This document shows positions 11,115-17,739 of a stretch of 64,000 nt of DNA, piece by piece. A program made the translations under genes and the position numbers. The stretch comes from Thermanaeromonas toyohensis ToBE (GTDB lineage Bacteria; Bacillota; DSM-521; Neomoorellales; Neomoorellaceae), in NCBI RefSeq assembly GCF_900176005.1, contig NZ_LT838272.1:1011587-1075586 (forward strand). The letters run 5' to 3'. Below the pieces are notes generated by a model. It did not search any database, was not told the origin of the DNA, and was given only the letters and a program-made list of their open reading frames with translations. The number at the start of each line of letters is the position of its first letter. Within the stretch, counting starts at the first letter, position 1.

Positions 11115-11687
11115 ATGGAACCCCGGGAGTTGGCGGCTGCGCTGGCTCAAAATAGGGATTTACTTAAGCGTGTAGAAGAAAAGAGCGGTGTGGACATAAA
11201 GAATTGCTATCAATGTGGCAAATGTTCAGCGGGGTGCCCCATGGCCTTTGCCATGGATTATACCCCCCGGCAGATAATACGTTTGCTGCAGTTGGGCTTT
11301 ATCGATGAAGCCTTAAAAAGCCGGACCATTTGGATATGCGCACATTGCCAGGCCTGTTATACCCGTTGCCCCCGGGAAGTGGACTTACCGCGGCTTATGG
11401 AGGCCTTACGACAGGAGGCCGCCCAGGGCGGTCTGGTGACGGATAAGAAGGTACACCTCTTTGACCGGGCCTTCTTAAGTTCTGTGGAACGTTACGGAAG
11501 GGTGCACGAGATGGGGCTTATGGTTCAGTTTAACCTGCAATCTGGCCAGATTTTTAAAGATGTAGCACTTGCGCCCCCTCTGTTTTTAAACGGTAAGATA
11601 AACCCCTTCCCTACCCGGATCAAAGATGAAGGTGCTATTAGAGCTATTTTTCAGCGGGTGCGATCCCGAGGAGGTGATGGGCATTGA
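11115..11687 (+). CDS. hdrC: Heterodisulfide-reductase subunit C-like iron-sulfur protein
   Basis: 190 residues. Two [4Fe-4S] motifs, CYQCGKCSAGCP (about residues 32-43) and CAHCQACYTRCP (about 75-86), bring electrons from HdrA to HdrB. No membrane segment is present, so the complex is cytosolic. AGAGGTGAAAGG precedes ATG 11115; a GTG at 11106 lies within that site. First gene of an eight-gene operon; it overlaps hdrB by 4 bases. Confidence 0.9.
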   Translation: MEPRELAAALAQNRDLLKRVEEKSGVDIKNCYQCGKCSAGCPMAFAMDYTPRQIIRLLQLGFIDEALKSRTIWICAHCQACYTRCPREVDLPRLMEALRQEAAQGGLVTDKKVHLFDRAFLSSVERYGRVHEMGLMVQFNLQSGQIFKDVALAPPLFLNGKINPFPTRIKDEGAIRAIFQRVRSRGGDGH

Positions 11688-12583
11688 AATACGCCTATTA
11701 CCCTGGGTGCTCCCTCCACGCTACGGCAGTAGAATATGATACTTCTGCCAAGGTGGTGGCCAAGCACCTGGGTGTTGAGTTATGGGAGATTCCAGAATGG
11801 AACTGTTGTGGGGCTTCAGCGGCCCATAATACCGATCATCTCTTAGCCCTCGCCCTTCCAGCCAGAAATCTGGCTCTGGCTGAAAGGGAGGGCCTGGATG
11901 TGGCTGTCCCTTGCGCTGCTTGTTTTAACCGGCTTAAAGCGGCCCAGGCGGCGGTGCGCGGATCCGAAGAGATGCGCAACACCATAAAGGAGATAATCGG
12001 AATGGATTACCAGGGGCAGGGGGAAGTGCGGGCCTTCCTGGACGTAGTAGTAAATGTAGTGGGCTTGGCCAAGATCCGCGATTTAGTTACCCGGCCGCTG
12101 ACAGGTCTTAAAGTGGCGGCCTATTACGGTTGCCTCCTGGTCCGGCCACCGAAGCTTACAGCCTTCGATGATCCTGAAGATCCCCAAACCATGGACCGTC
12201 TGGTGGAAGCCTTAGGTGGTACGCCGGTGTCGTGGGCTTTTAAGACTGAATGCTGCAGTGCTAGTCTCGCTACTTCCCGGACGGATATAGGGCTTTTGCC
12301 CATCTTCCGTATCTTAAGGCAGGCCAAAGCTGCTGGCGCAGACTGCGTAGCTGTAGCTTGTCCTTTATGCTTCCTTAATTTAGATATGCGACAAGCAGAG
12401 GTCCAGCGCCGCTTTCGGGAGGAACTTGGTCTCCCTATATTCTACTTTACTGAACTTATGGGAATAGCCTTGGGTTATGCACCTAGGGATCTAGGGTTAC
12501 CTAAACATTTTGTTAATCCGTTACCTTTATTGGAAGCTAAGGAGATTTTACGGCATCCTGCCACAAGGAGGGAGACAGCTTGA
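11684..12583 (+). CDS. hdrB: Heterodisulfide-reductase subunit B-like, two CCG domains
   Basis: 299 residues from TTG 11684, overlapping hdrC, with GGAGGTGAT upstream. Two cysteine-rich CCG domains are complete: YYPGCS...NCCGASAAH...CAACF and YYGCLLVRPP...ECCSASLATS...CPLCFLNLD. In methanogen HdrB these hold two non-cubane iron-sulfur clusters that split a disulfide. The natural disulfide here is unknown; no DsrC or coenzyme M/B gene is in the window. It overlaps hdrA by 4 bases (TTGA). Confidence 0.9.
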   Translation: MKYAYYPGCSLHATAVEYDTSAKVVAKHLGVELWEIPEWNCCGASAAHNTDHLLALALPARNLALAEREGLDVAVPCAACFNRLKAAQAAVRGSEEMRNTIKEIIGMDYQGQGEVRAFLDVVVNVVGLAKIRDLVTRPLTGLKVAAYYGCLLVRPPKLTAFDDPEDPQTMDRLVEALGGTPVSWAFKTECCSASLATSRTDIGLLPIFRILRQAKAAGADCVAVACPLCFLNLDMRQAEVQRRFREELGLPIFYFTELMGIALGYAPRDLGLPKHFVNPLPLLEAKEILRHPATRRETA

Positions 12584-14562
12584 AACGCGTAGGAGTCTTT
12601 GTCTGCCACTGTGGAACGAATATCGCCTCGGTGGTGGATGTTAAACGGGTAGCAGAGGCGGCCCGGGGTTTTCCTGGGGTAGTCTTTGCTACTGATTACC
12701 AGTATATGTGTTCCGATCCTGGGCAGGAGCTTATACGCAAGAGCATTAAGGATCAACGCTTGAACCGCGTGGTGGTAGCTTCTTGCTCACCTAGGCTTCA
12801 TGAGCCCACCTTCCGTAAGACCCTGGAAAGCGCAGGGCTCAATCCTTACCTTCTAGAAATGGCTAATATCCGTGAACAGTGTGCCTGGGTTCATGCTAAG
12901 GACAAGGAAGGTGCTACAGCTAAAGCCATAGAGCTGGTACGCATAGCTGTAGCTAAGGCCTCCCTTAATTCTCCTCTTAAGCCCAGTACTATTCCCATTA
13001 CCAAGCGAGCCCTGGTCATAGGAGCTGGCATAGCCGGTATGCAGGCGGCCTTGGATATTGCTGATGCAGGGTATGAGGTAGTTCTGCTAGACCGGGAGCC
13101 TACCATAGGGGGGAATATGGTTAAACTGGATAAGACTTTCCCCACCTTAGACTGTTCAGCCTGAATAAGCACACCTAAGATGGTTGCTGCGGCGCAGCAC
13201 CCTCAAATTCAAGTAATGACCTATGCAGAGGTAGAACAGGTATCCGGTTATGTGGGTAATTTCCAAGTAACCATTCGTAAGAAAGCCCGGATGGTAGATG
13301 CTACTAAGTGTACCGGTTGCGGTACCTGCTGGGAGAAATGTCCTACGAAGGTGGATAGCGAGTTTGACTTGGGGTTGGGTAAGCGCAAGGCTATATATGT
13401 ACCCTTCCCCCAAGCTGTTCCCGCAGTACCGGTCATCGACAAAGAGCACTGCCGCCAGTTTACTAAGGGCAAGTGTGGCATATGCCAGAAGGTTTGCCCA
13501 ACTAAGGCTGTAGACTATGAGCAGCAGGACGAAATTATTACTGAAAACTTCGGGGCTATTGTAGTGGCTACGGGTTATGAACTTTTCCCTTGGGAGCAAG
13601 TATATGGAGAGTACGGTTATGGCCGTTACCCAGATGTTATCACTAGTATGCATTTTGAGCGCATGAACAGCGCTTCCGGCCCGACGGGTGGCAAGATCAT
13701 ACGACCCTCAGATGGAAAGGAGCCCCAAACTGTAGTATTTATCAAATGTGTGGGTTCCCGGGATGAGGCTAAGGGCAAAAGTTATTGTTCCCGTGCCTGT
13801 TGTATGTACACGGCTAAACACGCTCATCAGGTGTTAGAGAAAATACCAGATGCGCAGGCTATTGTATTCTATATGGACGTCCGTACCCCGGGTAAAGCTT
13901 ACGAAGAATTCTATTCTCGGACTGTCCATGAAGGTGCAGTATACGTTCGAGGACGAGTAAGCCGGATCTACCAGGAGGGGGATAAACTTATAGTTTGCGC
14001 CGAGGATACTCTCCTGGGTAGGCAGGTGACGGTAGCCGCTGATCTGGTGGTCCTGGCCACAGCTATGGTACCTAGCCGTGGTTGGGAGGAGTTGGCCAAG
14101 ATGTTAGGGCTGGCCACGGATAAGGATGGCTTTTTCCAAGAAGCCCATCCCAAACTGCGGCCAGTGGAGACCTACACAGCAGGAGTATTCTTAGCGGGGG
14201 CCTGCCAGGGACCTAAAGATATCCCGGATACAGTGGCCCAGGCTAGCGGTGCCGCAGTAAAAGTATGCCAACTTTTGAGCAAAGATGAAATGGCTACCGA
14301 TCCCATGACATCTACAGTGGATGAGAGTTTGTGCTCTGGTTGTGGTCTGTGTCAGCCTATCTGCCCCTACAAGGCCATTGAAATGAAAACCATTACCGAG
14401 CGAGTAGCCGGTAAAACCATAACCCGCCAGGTAGCTAGCGTTAATATAGGGTTATGCCAAGGTTGCGGTGCCTGCACTGTTGTGTGCAGGTCCAGTGCCT
14501 TGAATTTGCGCGGCTTCAGTAATGAGCAGATATTAGCGGAGGTGGATGCAGCATGTCTGTAA
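12580..14562 (+). CDS. hdrA: Electron-bifurcating HdrA, selenocysteine at residue 195
   Basis: 660 residues if TGA 13162-13164 is read as selenocysteine. The order is: an N-terminal domain ([20 protein letters not shown]); FAD-binding thioredoxin-reductase fold ([20 protein letters not shown], about 146-165); an inserted ferredoxin ([12 protein letters not shown] near 244, CGICQKVCP near 299); and a C-terminal two-cluster ferredoxin ([12 protein letters not shown] near 585, [11 protein letters not shown] near 626). The TGA interrupts TLDCSA-U-ISTPKM, where relatives have Cys. Both sides keep one frame and full family length, so this is not decay. FAD in this subunit splits electron pairs in the known Hdr complexes. 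TTG start with AAGGAGGGAG upstream; overlaps flxD by 10 bases. Confidence 0.92.
13162..13201 (+). promoter_or_regulatory. UGA selenocysteine codon and SECIS-like hairpin in hdrA
   Basis: TGA at 13162-13164, then a hairpin at 13182-13201. Stem bases 13182-13190 pair with 13194-13201, leaving U13184 bulged and a GGC loop. The outline GGUUGC...GCACC with one bulged U and G residues in the loop copies the Escherichia coli fdhF SECIS core. The distance from UGA to the stem is 17 bases, as expected for a bacterial SECIS, which must lie inside the coding region. Selenocysteine reading also requires SelB and tRNA-Sec genes elsewhere in the genome. Confidence 0.85.
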
Positions 14563-14990
14563 ATCAGGAAGCCAGCTGTTGGGAGCCTAAAATAATTGCT
14601 TTTTGCTGCCACTGGTGTGCCTATGCTGGGGCGGATCTGGCTGGGCTAAATCGCCTATCCTATCCAGCCAACGTCCGCATTATACGGGTACCTTGTTCTG
14701 GGAGGGTGAATCCCCAATTTGTTCTCCGCGCTTTCCAGCGCGGGGCGGATGGTGTATTAGTAGCTGGCTGACACCCTGGCGACTGCCACTATGTTAGTGG
14801 CAATTATCATGCCCGTCGGCGTTTGCTTGTGCTAGAACGGATGTTAGAGTTTATAGGTATTGAACCAGCTCGTTTCAAAGTGCGCTGGGTTTCGGGTTCG
14901 GAAGGCCCTCGCTTTGCAGAAATAATTACCCAGATGACCGAGGAGATCCGGGCTTTAGGGCCCAATAGGAAGTTGAGGGATGCGGTATGA
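14553..14990 (+). CDS. flxD: FlxD/MvhD-like subunit, selenocysteine at residue 73
   Basis: 145 residues if TGA 14769-14771 is selenocysteine. MvhD-family proteins carry a [2Fe-2S] cluster and pass electrons into HdrA. Visible motifs: [15 protein letters not shown] (Cys18, 19, 22), PCSGRVNP (Cys48) and [18 protein letters not shown] (Sec73, Cys78), where relatives have CHPGDCH. The frame continues for 72 codons past the TGA through [15 protein letters not shown] to the normal family end. GGAGGTGG precedes ATG 14553. It overlaps hdrA by 10 bases and flxC by 4 (ATGA). Confidence 0.92.
14769..14802 (+). promoter_or_regulatory. UGA selenocysteine codon and SECIS-like hairpin in flxD
   Basis: TGA at 14769-14771 is followed after 12 bases by an uninterrupted 8-bp stem: TGCCACTA (14784-14791) pairs with TAGTGGCA (14795-14802), loop TGT. 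Position and size suit a bacterial SECIS. Unlike the hdrA element it has no bulged U and only one loop G, so the two hairpins are not copies of one another. Confidence 0.8.
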
Positions 14991-15892
14991 ACGAGATTAC
15001 CGAAAGGATGCGGGTACGGGCACAGGAACTTCTTAAAAAGGGCGAAGTTCAATGGGTTATCGGTTGGGAAAAGGGATCCTTGTGGTATCATTCCTCCCCG
15101 GTTTTCATCCGCCGGCCGGAAGAAGTGGGTCGCTTAATCTGGGATGATTTTTGTGCCAACAATCTGGCTAAATACTTGTTAGATTTTACCCAGTTAGAAG
15201 GAAAGGTAGCCTTATTCTTAAAAGGGTGCGATGCAAAAGGTGTAAACCGGCTCCTGCAGGATCAGCAAATAGAAAGGGAGAAAGTATATCTTATTGGTAT
15301 CACCTGCCCAGGGGTAAGGGATAGTCGTCAGGCTAAAGGGAAGGGCCCGGAAGCTTTAGAAAGTATTCCCCTAGAAGAAAGATGCACTTTTTGCACCCAT
15401 CCCGAACCTGTAATTTACGATGAGCTTATCGATACAGGAGAGAAGTTGCCGGGCCGGGGGGAAGGGGAACCTCAAGCTCGTTTTGCTGAAGTTATGCGCT
15501 TGTCGGCCTTAAATCCCGATGAGCGTTATGAGTTCTGGGCAAGGCAGTATGAAAGGTGTCTCCGCTGTTATGCTTGCCGTAATGTATGCCCGGCCTGTAA
15601 CTGTCGGGAGTGCATCTTTGATCGCTCACAATCCGGTTGGTGCAGCAAGCGCATTTTAAGAAGCGAAAACGAATTTTATGGTTTAACCCGGGCCTTGCAC
15701 GTGGCGGGCCGTTGCATTGAATGTGGAGAATGCGAACGGGCATGCCCAGTAGGGATCCCTATCATGAGCTTGCACAGGAAGATAATTAAAGACCTTAACG
15801 AGCTATTCGGGCCTTATGAGGCTGGCCTGGATACGGAAACTCCGCCGCCTCTGGGTACCTACCGGGTAGAGGATCCTGATTACTTCTTATAA
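14987..15892 (+). CDS. flxC: FlxC-like iron-sulfur subunit
   Basis: 301 residues. The N-terminal half (WVIGWEKGSLWYHSSPVFIR, LFLKGCDAKGVNRLLQDQ, IGITCPGV) resembles the FrhB-like fold of several ferredoxin-linked subunits. The C-terminal half has two cluster motifs: CLRCYACRNVCPAC and CIECGECERACPVG. An extra ERCTFCTHPEP cysteine pair lies between them. In FlxABCD-HdrABC complexes FlxC carries electrons between the NADH-oxidising module and FlxD/HdrA. ATGA overlap with flxD. The name rests on operon order and domain content. Confidence 0.8.
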   Translation: MNEITERMRVRAQELLKKGEVQWVIGWEKGSLWYHSSPVFIRRPEEVGRLIWDDFCANNLAKYLLDFTQLEGKVALFLKGCDAKGVNRLLQDQQIEREKVYLIGITCPGVRDSRQAKGKGPEALESIPLEERCTFCTHPEPVIYDELIDTGEKLPGRGEGEPQARFAEVMRLSALNPDERYEFWARQYERCLRCYACRNVCPACNCRECIFDRSQSGWCSKRILRSENEFYGLTRALHVAGRCIECGECERACPVGIPIMSLHRKIIKDLNELFGPYEAGLDTETPPPLGTYRVEDPDYFL

Positions 15893-15908
15893 AAGGGAGG
15901 TGCTGAGA

Positions 15909-16913
15909 ATGTTAAAGATTAGGCGGGATAAATTGCCTCAAGTTTTATCAATATGGTCGGAGGGGGCTACGGTCTATATTCCTCAAGAAGCGGATGGCAT
16001 CAGCACCTTCCGCCCCTGGACTGGGCAGACAGAAGTTAATTTTAAGCCGGGAAGCACAGTTGTACCGCCTAAAGAGTTATTTTTCTTACGGACAGAAGAA
16101 ATGTACCGGTACCGCGTAGAAGGCCAGGCAGCCTTCCTAGAGGAACTTCCTCCCCCCCAAGAAAAACGAGTATTGGTGGGGGTCCGCTCTTGTGATGCCC
16201 GGAGTTTCTTACTCCTAGATGAGGTTTTCTTAACTAAAGGTTATATAGATGAATTTTACCATAAGCGGCGGGAGAACACCTTGATAGTGGCCCTAGCCTG
16301 TCGGGAACCTCTAGACACTTGCTTCTGCACCTCCCTAGGGGTAGATCCTGGCCGGGCTGAAGGGGTGGATATTCAAGCCTGGGAAGGAGAAGATGGCTTT
16401 CTTTTAGAAGCCACCAGCGAGACGGGAAGGTCGTTGCTGGAAAAGGTGAGGGGTCTCTTGGTAGAAACGTCCGAGGAAGTTCCTGCTGGTGTCCGTCCTC
16501 GCCTCGAGGTGGAGTTAGAAGGGGTTACGGAGAAGCTGCAAAGGATGTTCGAGCATCCCTTCTGGGATGACCTATGGCATAAGTGCGTAGGTTGTGCAGC
16601 CTGTACCTTCCTTTGCCCTACCTGCCATTGTTTTGATATCCAGAGCGAAAATAGGGGTAACTGGGGCTTTAAGTTCAGATGTTGGGATTCGTGCATGTTT
16701 CCAGAGTATACCCGTATGGCTGGCGGCCATAACCCCCGGCCCACAAGAAAAGAAAGGGTACGCAATCGCATTTTACACAAACTCCAGTATTTCCCTGAAC
16801 GTTATGGCAAGTTAGGTTGTGTAGGTTGCGGTCGCTGCTTGGACCGCTGCCCAGTGCATATGGATATAACGAAAATAATCCAGGCCATAAAGGAGGTGGC
16901 CTTGGATGGCTGA
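15909..16913 (+). CDS. flxB: FlxB-like iron-sulfur subunit (AsrA/HydB-type)
   Basis: 334 residues from ATG 15909, six bases after GGGAGGTG. N-terminal region (VLVGVRSCDARSFLLLDEVF, ALACREPLDTCFCTSLG) matches the AsrA-type domain. Two [4Fe-4S] motifs follow: CVGCAACTFLCPTC and CVGCGRCLDRCPVH. It should link the FAD of FlxA to FlxC. A GTG at 15900 is inside the ribosome-binding site. It overlaps flxA by 8 bases. Confidence 0.82.
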   Translation: MLKIRRDKLPQVLSIWSEGATVYIPQEADGISTFRPWTGQTEVNFKPGSTVVPPKELFFLRTEEMYRYRVEGQAAFLEELPPPQEKRVLVGVRSCDARSFLLLDEVFLTKGYIDEFYHKRRENTLIVALACREPLDTCFCTSLGVDPGRAEGVDIQAWEGEDGFLLEATSETGRSLLEKVRGLLVETSEEVPAGVRPRLEVELEGVTEKLQRMFEHPFWDDLWHKCVGCAACTFLCPTCHCFDIQSENRGNWGFKFRCWDSCMFPEYTRMAGGHNPRPTRKERVRNRILHKLQYFPERYGKLGCVGCGRCLDRCPVHMDITKIIQAIKEVALDG

Positions 16914-17739
16914 AAACTTTGGACAGGTCAATCCGCTGGTACCCCAGCTAGGACGGATTATAAATATTGTCGAGGAGACCCCGGATATAAAGACTTTTTA
17001 TATAACTACTGATCAGGGTAAACCCTTTACTCCTTTACCAGGTCAGTTGGCTATGTTATCCTTATTAGATGTAGGGGAGGCCATGTTTTCCATCACTTCC
17101 CAGGGGCCTGACCACTTGGAGATATCCATTAAGAAAGTGGGTACCCTCACAGAGGCCCTCCATGAAGCCGAGATAGGCCAGACTGTTGGTATCCGCGGAC
17201 CTTATGGTAACGGGTTTCCCCTGGAAATGTTTTATGGGAAGGACGTACTTTTCATCGGCGGCGGTATAGGGCTGGCCCCTGTCCGTTCCTTGATCAATTA
17301 TTGTATCGAACACCGGGATAAGTTTGGACATTTGTGGATCATCTATGGTGCTCGCTCTCCGGCGGATCTCTGCTTTAAAACCGACCTCTTTGAAAACTGG
17401 CCTAAAGTGGAGAACTGCCGGGTGGATGTGACTGTAGATAAAGGAGATGCTACCTGGACGGGACACGAAGGTTTTGTTCCTGCCTTTGTGGAGGAGCTTA
17501 AGCCCACGCCTCAAGGCAAAGTGGCGGTAACCTGCGGGCCGCCCATCATGATCAAGTTTGTCCTGCAGGTTTTGGAGAGATTGGGTTTTAAAGACGACCA
17601 AATTGTTACTACTTTGGAGATGCGTATGAAGTGCGGTATTGGGAAATGCGGGCGCTGCAACTTAGGGAGCAAATATGTGTGCTTGGATGGCCCGGTGTTC
17701 ACCCTAGCCCAGCTTAAACAGTTACCCAATGAGTACTGA
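16906..17739 (+). CDS. flxA: FlxA-like FAD/NAD(P)-binding subunit (AsrB-type)
   Basis: 277 residues of the ferredoxin-NADP reductase superfamily. A beta-barrel FAD domain (FTPLPGQLAMLSLLDVGEA; GIRGPYGNGFPL) precedes the NAD-binding domain (LFIGGGIGLAPVRSLINY; TCGPPIMIKFVLQVL). The C-terminus CGIGKCGRCNLG...YVCLDGPVF provides a [2Fe-2S] site as in DHODH electron-transfer subunits. It is the likely NADH entry point of the complex. NADH versus NADPH cannot be told from the sequence by eye. It overlaps the next gene by 11 bases. Confidence 0.85.
   Translation: MAENFGQVNPLVPQLGRIINIVEETPDIKTFYITTDQGKPFTPLPGQLAMLSLLDVGEAMFSITSQGPDHLEISIKKVGTLTEALHEAEIGQTVGIRGPYGNGFPLEMFYGKDVLFIGGGIGLAPVRSLINYCIEHRDKFGHLWIIYGARSPADLCFKTDLFENWPKVENCRVDVTVDKGDATWTGHEGFVPAFVEELKPTPQGKVAVTCGPPIMIKFVLQVLERLGFKDDQIVTTLEMRMKCGIGKCGRCNLGSKYVCLDGPVFTLAQLKQLPNEY

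Follow-up and report, generated by a model that had tools for sequence, protein, structure and literature searches.

A selenocysteine HdrA in Thermanaeromonas toyohensis and an unlinked cysteine hdrA-mvhD pair as its probable selenium-starvation backup

Selenocysteine (Sec) has been described in HdrA and FrhD/MvhD proteins of Firmicutes, Deltaproteobacteria and methanogens, and the locus analysed here shares with these systems the CxxU motif and the clustering of hdrA and mvhD selenogenes, as far as the accessible parts of two sources go (PMC1794560, PMC13188914). One HdrA and one FrhD selenoprotein of Moorella thermoacetica were listed already in 2006 (Table 3 of PMC1794560, in its accessible part), and the selenoprotein reported here thus adds to known cases. 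By contrast, a paired cysteine cassette such as that of our host genome is not described in the accessible parts of PMC1794560 and PMC13188914. The closest parallel is found in Methanococcus, where Sec and Cys forms of HdrA and of MvhD/VhuD (hdrAU/hdrA, vhuD/vhcD) coexist in one genome, just as both versions of these subunits do in our host. According to the accessible sections of PMC11097638, the Cys isoforms of HdrA and VhuD are induced on selenium depletion, the LysR regulator being HrsM, and the yedE transcript is also up. Compared with what is accessible of that account, the system described here is bacterial, takes in five genomes the form of a two-gene cassette of the Sec subunits alone, and features a tandem palindrome before the cassette which in the host genome is common to selD; regulation is here predicted from sequence. 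In Desulfobacterium autotrophicum Cys paralogues of Sec Hdr proteins were suggested to be replacements under selenium limitation; this is a suggestion only, and neither cassette, operator nor second Cys is mentioned in the accessible text (PMC2702500). Literature titles and abstracts, with most subscription journals outside the search, yielded no account of a bacterial two-gene Cys cassette, of the second Cys or of the tandem operator, a silence of little weight. Relative to the known systems, what is new is an unlinked Cys pair, outside the window, which re-encodes exactly the two selenoprotein subunits.

The window, that is the whole stretch of DNA analysed, is 64,000 nucleotides long and corresponds to G000:C1:1011587-1075586, G000 being the host genome (3.33 Mb, single contig). 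Seven genes of the same direction lie at 11115-17730 (hdrC, hdrB, hdrA, mvhD and genes for an iron-sulphur, an AsrA-like and an AsrB-like protein). The features are, all on the + strand:

11115..11687, +, hdrC (TIGR03290 79.9 bits, below the cut-off of 160; ends by our own reading)
11684..12583, +, hdrB (TIGR03288 205 bits, below the cut-off of 345; PF02754 above cut-off)
12580..14562, +, hdrA, selenoprotein heterodisulfide reductase-like subunit A (NF040770 863.6 bits; 5odc_A, E 1.3e-227)
13162..13164, +, TGA, Sec195 codon of hdrA (sole in-frame stop; TGA in 17/18 family genomes; aligned with Cys197 of PDB 5odc_A)
13182..13201, +, SECIS hairpin of hdrA (fold, pair counts, synonymous-diversity minimum, comparison with fdhF)
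14553..14990, +, mvhD/flxD, second selenoprotein (PF02662 196.3 bits)
14770..14772, +, TGA of mvhD (Cys at the aligned site of 5odc_D)
14785..14803, +, SECIS-like hairpin of mvhD (fold; synonymous-diversity minimum)
14987..15892, +, iron-sulphur protein, flxC-like (Fer4 matches; position kept in relatives)
15900..16913, +, AsrA/HydB-like subunit, flxB-like (NF040829 178.6 bits and TIGR02910 175.5 bits, both below cut-off; PF17179)
16906..17730, +, AsrB-like NAD(P)H-binding flavoprotein, flxA-like (TIGR02911 199.5 bits, below cut-off; PF00175, PF10418)

We take this gene set to encode an electron-bifurcating complex of the Flx-Hdr type. The components that define FlxABCD-HdrABC all lie in one cluster, namely HdrABC, a D subunit of the MvhD type, a pair of iron-sulphur proteins and a flavoprotein that binds NAD(P)H. 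The likeness is to the FlxABCD-HdrABC of Desulfovibrio, reportedly described by Ramos in 2015, and bifurcation is here predicted from the genes; the host complex differs in having Sec in HdrA and in the D subunit, and in that the AsrA and AsrB models stay below cut-off. HdrA does not reach the cut-off (1100) of the NCBIfam HdrA2 model NF040770; the C-terminal part of that model corresponds to a fused MvhD, which is here a separate gene scoring 184.3 bits against that part. The nearest named HdrA relative (L065) is 95% identical.

The hdrA frame (12580-14562) comprises 660 codons and is interrupted only by the TGA at 13162-13164. A sequence-only reading had placed this in-frame UGA at a conserved Cys of HdrA, with the frame running on at both sides. 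Both points hold, since no other stop is present, and the alignment to homologues puts Cys at the site of residue 195 (Cys197 in 5odc_A), within the CxxC/CxxU motif. At this site 80 named HdrA loci split into 43 with TGA, 36 with Cys and one without a motif match. TGA was found in 17 of the 18 genomes of the host's family, the eighteenth (84% complete) having no match at the search threshold. A TGT or TGC codon revealed by resequencing, envisaged by the same reading, is not to be expected, as the TGA recurs in 16 further family genomes, and sequencing error is in practice excluded. In the solved archaeal HdrA, Cys197 reaches across the dimer to ligate the N-terminal iron-sulphur cluster of its partner, in the ferredoxin branch (PMC9012536, in its accessible part). 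By homology Sec195 probably keeps this role, and selenium would then ligate an inter-subunit cluster.

The hairpin at 13182-13201 begins 17 nt 3' of the TGA, and is made of GGU, a bulged U, GCUGC, a GGC loop, GCAGC and ACC. Its similarity to the E. coli fdhF SECIS, already noted from the sequence, is borne out by fold and sequence, along with some covariation. Both hairpins start with GGTTGC and end with GCACC; counted from the T of the TGA, they begin 14 (fdhF) and 20 (hdrA) bases on. The stretch 13177-13202 folds at -10.2 kcal/mol, and 13 of 200 shuffles are equally good; depending on the length of the stretch, 13, 18 or 55 of 200 shuffles match the hairpin energy, and energy alone is therefore not decisive. 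Evidence of a different kind comes from synonymous sites. Of 331 windows in 16 family hdrA genes, the nine-codon one starting six codons past the TGA is the least diverse at such sites (0.092, gene mean 0.41), and each of the ten lowest overlaps this stretch. A minimum falling over the hairpin implies that the RNA, and not the protein alone, is conserved. Among the 43 TGA hdrA genes, 30-nt folds lie between -9.3 and -12.7 kcal/mol; the Cys genes give -1.6 to -7.7 kcal/mol in 34 of 36 cases, exceptions being L143 (-10.0) and L144 (-9.6). Stem pair cells are paired in 99.0% of cases in 44 TGA sequences (37 distinct), and pairing falls to 14-64% when the stem partner is shifted by 1-3 columns. 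The structure of the window served for this count; the minimum-energy 30-nt folds of most relatives differ at the stem base. Covariation is modest: both partners vary in only 2 of 8 pairs (9 cells), and two of five measures fail to exceed shuffles. For a near-identical peptide the host's Cys paralogue uses other codons, and it folds more weakly (-7.2 vs -12.1 kcal/mol). A covariance model, R1, gives 70.4 bits at 13182-13201, a sequence which is itself among the 44 used to build R1. Rfam returned no SECIS match, either over the whole window at gathering threshold or over 12900-15000 in E-value mode; of the proposed check by folding and model, the fold thus fits an fdhF-like SECIS and the Rfam match is missing. 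The hairpin, soon after the UGA and with loop Gs, a bulged U and RNA-level constraint, has the features of a bacterial SECIS. The idea that a SECIS relic persists in the Cys copies was dropped, R1 scores of 22-44 bits being explicable by protein-level conservation.

The second selenoprotein follows the same pattern. The mvhD TGA is present in all 15 family loci in which the motif was found, of 16 tried, and the lowest synonymous diversity of 84 windows (0.016, mean 0.37) begins 3 codons after it.

The genome is equipped for Sec decoding. A tRNA-Sec gene (selC) scores 71.4 bits and its UCA anticodon was read from the sequence; SelB is present, with SelA adjoining, and so is SelD. The search for selA, selB, selC and selD advised earlier thus recovered all four in the same genome, and the absence of selB and tRNA-Sec, the outcome feared for the selenoprotein reading, is contradicted. 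Genes for SelD and for a formate dehydrogenase (FdhA) each carry an in-frame TGA. ARAGORN did not report the genome's own selC at L001. From codon, hairpin, constraint and machinery, all of them seen, we infer with near certainty that Sec is inserted at residue 195 of HdrA. As a side observation, genome G021 has two UCA tRNA-Sec genes about 8.6 kb apart (L249, L268), plus a third tRNA-Sec-like match.

A Sec-HdrA next to a second selenoprotein had been anticipated and is supported by the sequence; what had been missed is an all-Cys twin pair elsewhere in the genome. A second full-length HdrA is encoded at L043:7108-9093, is 84% identical to the first, and has TGC at the Sec site (CSACICTP). Directly behind lies an mvhD (L043:9084-9518), also with TGC at the Sec site. 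This hdrA(Cys)-mvhD(Cys) cassette is unlinked to the main operon, about 1 Mb away, and the 19-kb L043 locus has no match to hdrBC or flx genes. Both cassette genes are open, and the comparison of hdrA(Cys) with the Sec hdrA (pN 0.099, pS 0.77, the latter saturated) indicates that the cassette is under purifying selection.

Similar pairs occur elsewhere in the phylum. In the phylum sample 127 of 398 genomes gave a strong HdrA match; among the matches listed, at least 66 genomes have a TGA hdrA, and at least 11 both a TGA and a stop-free copy. Contexts of stop-free copies were fetched for 9 of these 11, leaving out G139, G023 and lower-ranked second copies elsewhere. Eight Cys HdrA-MvhD pairs lacking hdrBC reside in seven genomes, the host and six other Firmicutes, each with a TGA hdrA as well. 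In five of the seven (G000, G037, G109, G071, G025) hdrA-mvhD stands alone or is followed by non-Hdr genes, and only the two Sec subunits are duplicated. FlxCBA genes of their own accompany the pairs of G164, where one of two copies is truncated at the end of a contig, and of G250; the G250 pair has about 660 bases of contig upstream, and absence of hdrBC rests there on the promoter seen. Among the matches listed, genomes without a TGA copy have hdrB in 40 of 40 contexts of their stop-free HdrA. The second copy of G019 sits inside an hdrCB operon. In another Sec genome (G077) a Cys HdrA-MvhD-FlxCBA set without hdrB match (L187) reads CIL and belongs to another clade; upstream are, by our own reading, an HdrD-like and two Etf-like genes. 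Searches for a clear selC failed in two cassette MAGs, G037 (82% complete) and G250 (75% complete), and the class-level search around G071 took in 4 genomes. The remaining 16 family genomes that gave an HdrA match, one of them from the host's own genus, showed no Cys cassette, and the cassette must accordingly be dispensable.

The surroundings of some cassettes point to selenium. Directly behind the L176 cassette, and in one operon with it, is a gene for the YedE selenium transporter (474.7 bits, cut-off 200), with genes for TusA/YedF-like and Se_S_carrier proteins; in front are genes for a double-cubane reductase and its activase. YedE, DUF3343, a LysR subfamily and such activase genes are selenium-associated, as stated in the accessible part of PMC5322559. 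The cassette found at L183 and L185 has a LysR gene behind and, 115 nt in front, a tRNA of tRNA-Sec architecture with a GCA anticodon (L183:7208-7305, L185:7185-7282; Rfam 51.8 bits), preceded in L183 by an operator-like site (score 15) and a TATAAT. The L183 LysR scores 90.7 bits against the selenium LysR model NF040786, below its cut-off of 250. This tRNA resembles the selC* tRNA-Cys in architecture and anticodon, to judge from the accessible part of PMC7609411; here, unlike there, such a tRNA is found in two relatives and not among the host tRNA matches examined (none in 8 of 24 tRNA-Sec matches). Formate dehydrogenases near L175 and beside L180 have Cys where Sec is expected (ARLCHAS, vs ARLUHSS in the host genome).

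Upstream of the pairs we observed a tandem palindrome, (ATAAC-N5-GTTAT)-N7-(ATAAC-N5-GTTAT). Each half is a T-N11-A box of the type bound by LysR proteins. On a scale of 20, scores are 20 in L180, 19 in L183 and L185, 17 in L043, L174 and L178, 15 in L175, and 15 at the operon start of L176, the region directly before hdrA inside that operon scoring 9. Observed scores were reached by 0 or 1 of 300 shuffles, and among gaps of 0 to 20 between the palindromes only 7 stands out (sum 120, next 100). Distinct control operons (46 Sec, 74 Cys) score at most 15, and three of them do, so that L175 and L176 are no better than the three best controls; L187 scores 11. Across 1,991,917 distinct control bases (2,256,297 with repeats) a score of 15 occurs 16 times and 17 once, with no other site above 15; the lone 17 (L207:9644) falls between genes which by our own reading have no apparent selenium link. 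A TATAAT-like box lies 1-2 nt past box 2 in L174, L175, L176, L178, L180 and L183, and directly after it at selD. It is absent at that spacing in L043, and a sigma-70 scan of the L043 upstream region gave no promoter. A score of 15 joined to a TATAAT recurs in five control places in 2,275,298 bases (L080, L103, L132, L202, L283), none with 16 or more. In the host genome 145,005 bases were scanned and only two sites of at least 16 emerged, one before the cassette (17) and one 41 nt upstream of selD (16; L044:6704-6740). No operator-like site above 14 was found in the Sec-fdhA region of the host genome, and the window scan found no such operator in front of the window's own operon. The pattern was defined on L180 and L183 with every upstream sequence already inspected; L043 is consequently not a blind test, and independent evidence is confined to the shuffles, the control operons and the selD site. 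Taken as a whole, these data make it very likely that the tandem operator is real. An operator before selD as a general rule was rejected, as only one of three selD genes has it (L289 and L293 do not). In G058 a double-cubane reductase-like gene close to selA-selB has a site of 15/20 plus TATAAT (L283:7627-7663) upstream.

In all eight hdrBC-less pairs HdrA reads CSAC-I-C-TP, with Cys for Sec plus a further Cys for Ser at +2. Among 155 distinct HdrA proteins the +2 Cys is found in none of 67 Sec forms and in five Cys forms from hdrB operons. In a tree built without the two Cys columns L043 falls inside the Sec clade of the family (100/94), and L176 (G037) is sister to the Sec copy of its own genome (97/98). 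An AU test rejected L043 and L176 as one clade (p 3e-171); this is the sole pair tested, and was named after the tree had been seen. On this same tree, of 55 rows, CIC vs all else requires at least 6 changes. The phylogeny suggests that at least two separate duplications gave rise to the cassettes; L183 and the L206-L207 operons are not resolved in the tree, hence at least two origins, and not five, are claimed.

The Cys cassette could be a paralogue made for a different complex, with other HdrB/HdrC proteins or electron carriers, rather than a selenium backup. It is unlinked to hdrBC and flx, the hdrBC-less Cys copies L175 and L180 carry FlxCBA of their own, and the host genome has seven MvhD-type matches. 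Nevertheless, in five of seven genomes nothing is copied beyond the two Sec subunits, L043 and L176 branch off inside Sec clades of this very complex, cassettes and selD have the operator in common, and YedE, TusA-type and Se_S_carrier genes follow one cassette. This makes the hypothesis unlikely. Even less credit may be given to the view that the host's cassette is a passenger of a mobile element devoid of a present role. Immediately upstream are an integrase gene, the remains of another and a sequence resembling the 3' end of a tRNA (L043:4661-6990, own reading), and the cassette did not show up in the genus's other genome, but both frames are open and under purifying selection, and an operator scoring 17/20 stands in front. 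That the TGA of hdrA reflects faulty sequencing, a nonsense mutation of recent date or a pseudogene, as an in-frame stop alone would permit, is next to impossible, given that TGA and hairpin occur in 17/18 family genomes and at 43/80 named loci, that the rest of the frame is intact, and that SelD and FdhA genes of the same genome have internal TGAs too.

Architecture, recurrence, operator and neighbours argue that the Cys cassette is probably a selenium backup. The explanation as a whole, a Sec-HdrA with its SECIS and a Cys cassette kept for selenium starvation, appears likely. In the scheme proposed, SelB bound to the hairpin 17 nt downstream would bring Sec-tRNA(Sec) to UGA codon 195, and Sec195 would replace Cys197 as ligand of the N-terminal iron-sulphur cluster of the partner HdrA, in the ferredoxin branch. 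When selenium is short, a LysR-type regulator acting at the tandem operator would switch on hdrA(Cys)-mvhD(Cys), whose products would assemble with HdrBC and Flx encoded by the main operon; other HdrB/HdrC partners for the cassette products are possible.

A broader reading, towards which we lean on balance, is that Sec-decoding Firmicutes may have a dedicated selenium-starvation regulon, controlled by a LysR-type protein at a tandem operator mostly with a -10 box directly after. By species, the regulon would include the Cys hdrA-mvhD cassette, selD, the YedE operon, or the tRNA-Sec-like tRNA-Cys, possibly placing Cys at Sec codons. Since the second Cys lies beside the ligand of the inter-subunit cluster, the Cys enzyme would in this regulon be re-tuned, and not a plain Sec-to-Cys swap. 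If so, mixed Sec/Cys HdrA dimers are expected at intermediate selenium. On more than one occasion exactly two subunits of a single complex have had their Sec exchanged for Cys, each genome retaining both versions. Such pairs are ready for asking what Sec does as an inter-subunit iron-sulphur ligand in flavin-based bifurcation, and the operator offers a testable bacterial selenium-response system, comparable to the HrsM system of Methanococcus.

Sec and Cys subunits are also combined within single operons. No operon with a Sec HdrA and a Cys MvhD was seen among those with a readable MvhD motif, and a Cys HdrA is accompanied by a Sec MvhD in L089, L091, L102, L192, L199, L201, L205, L221 and L223.
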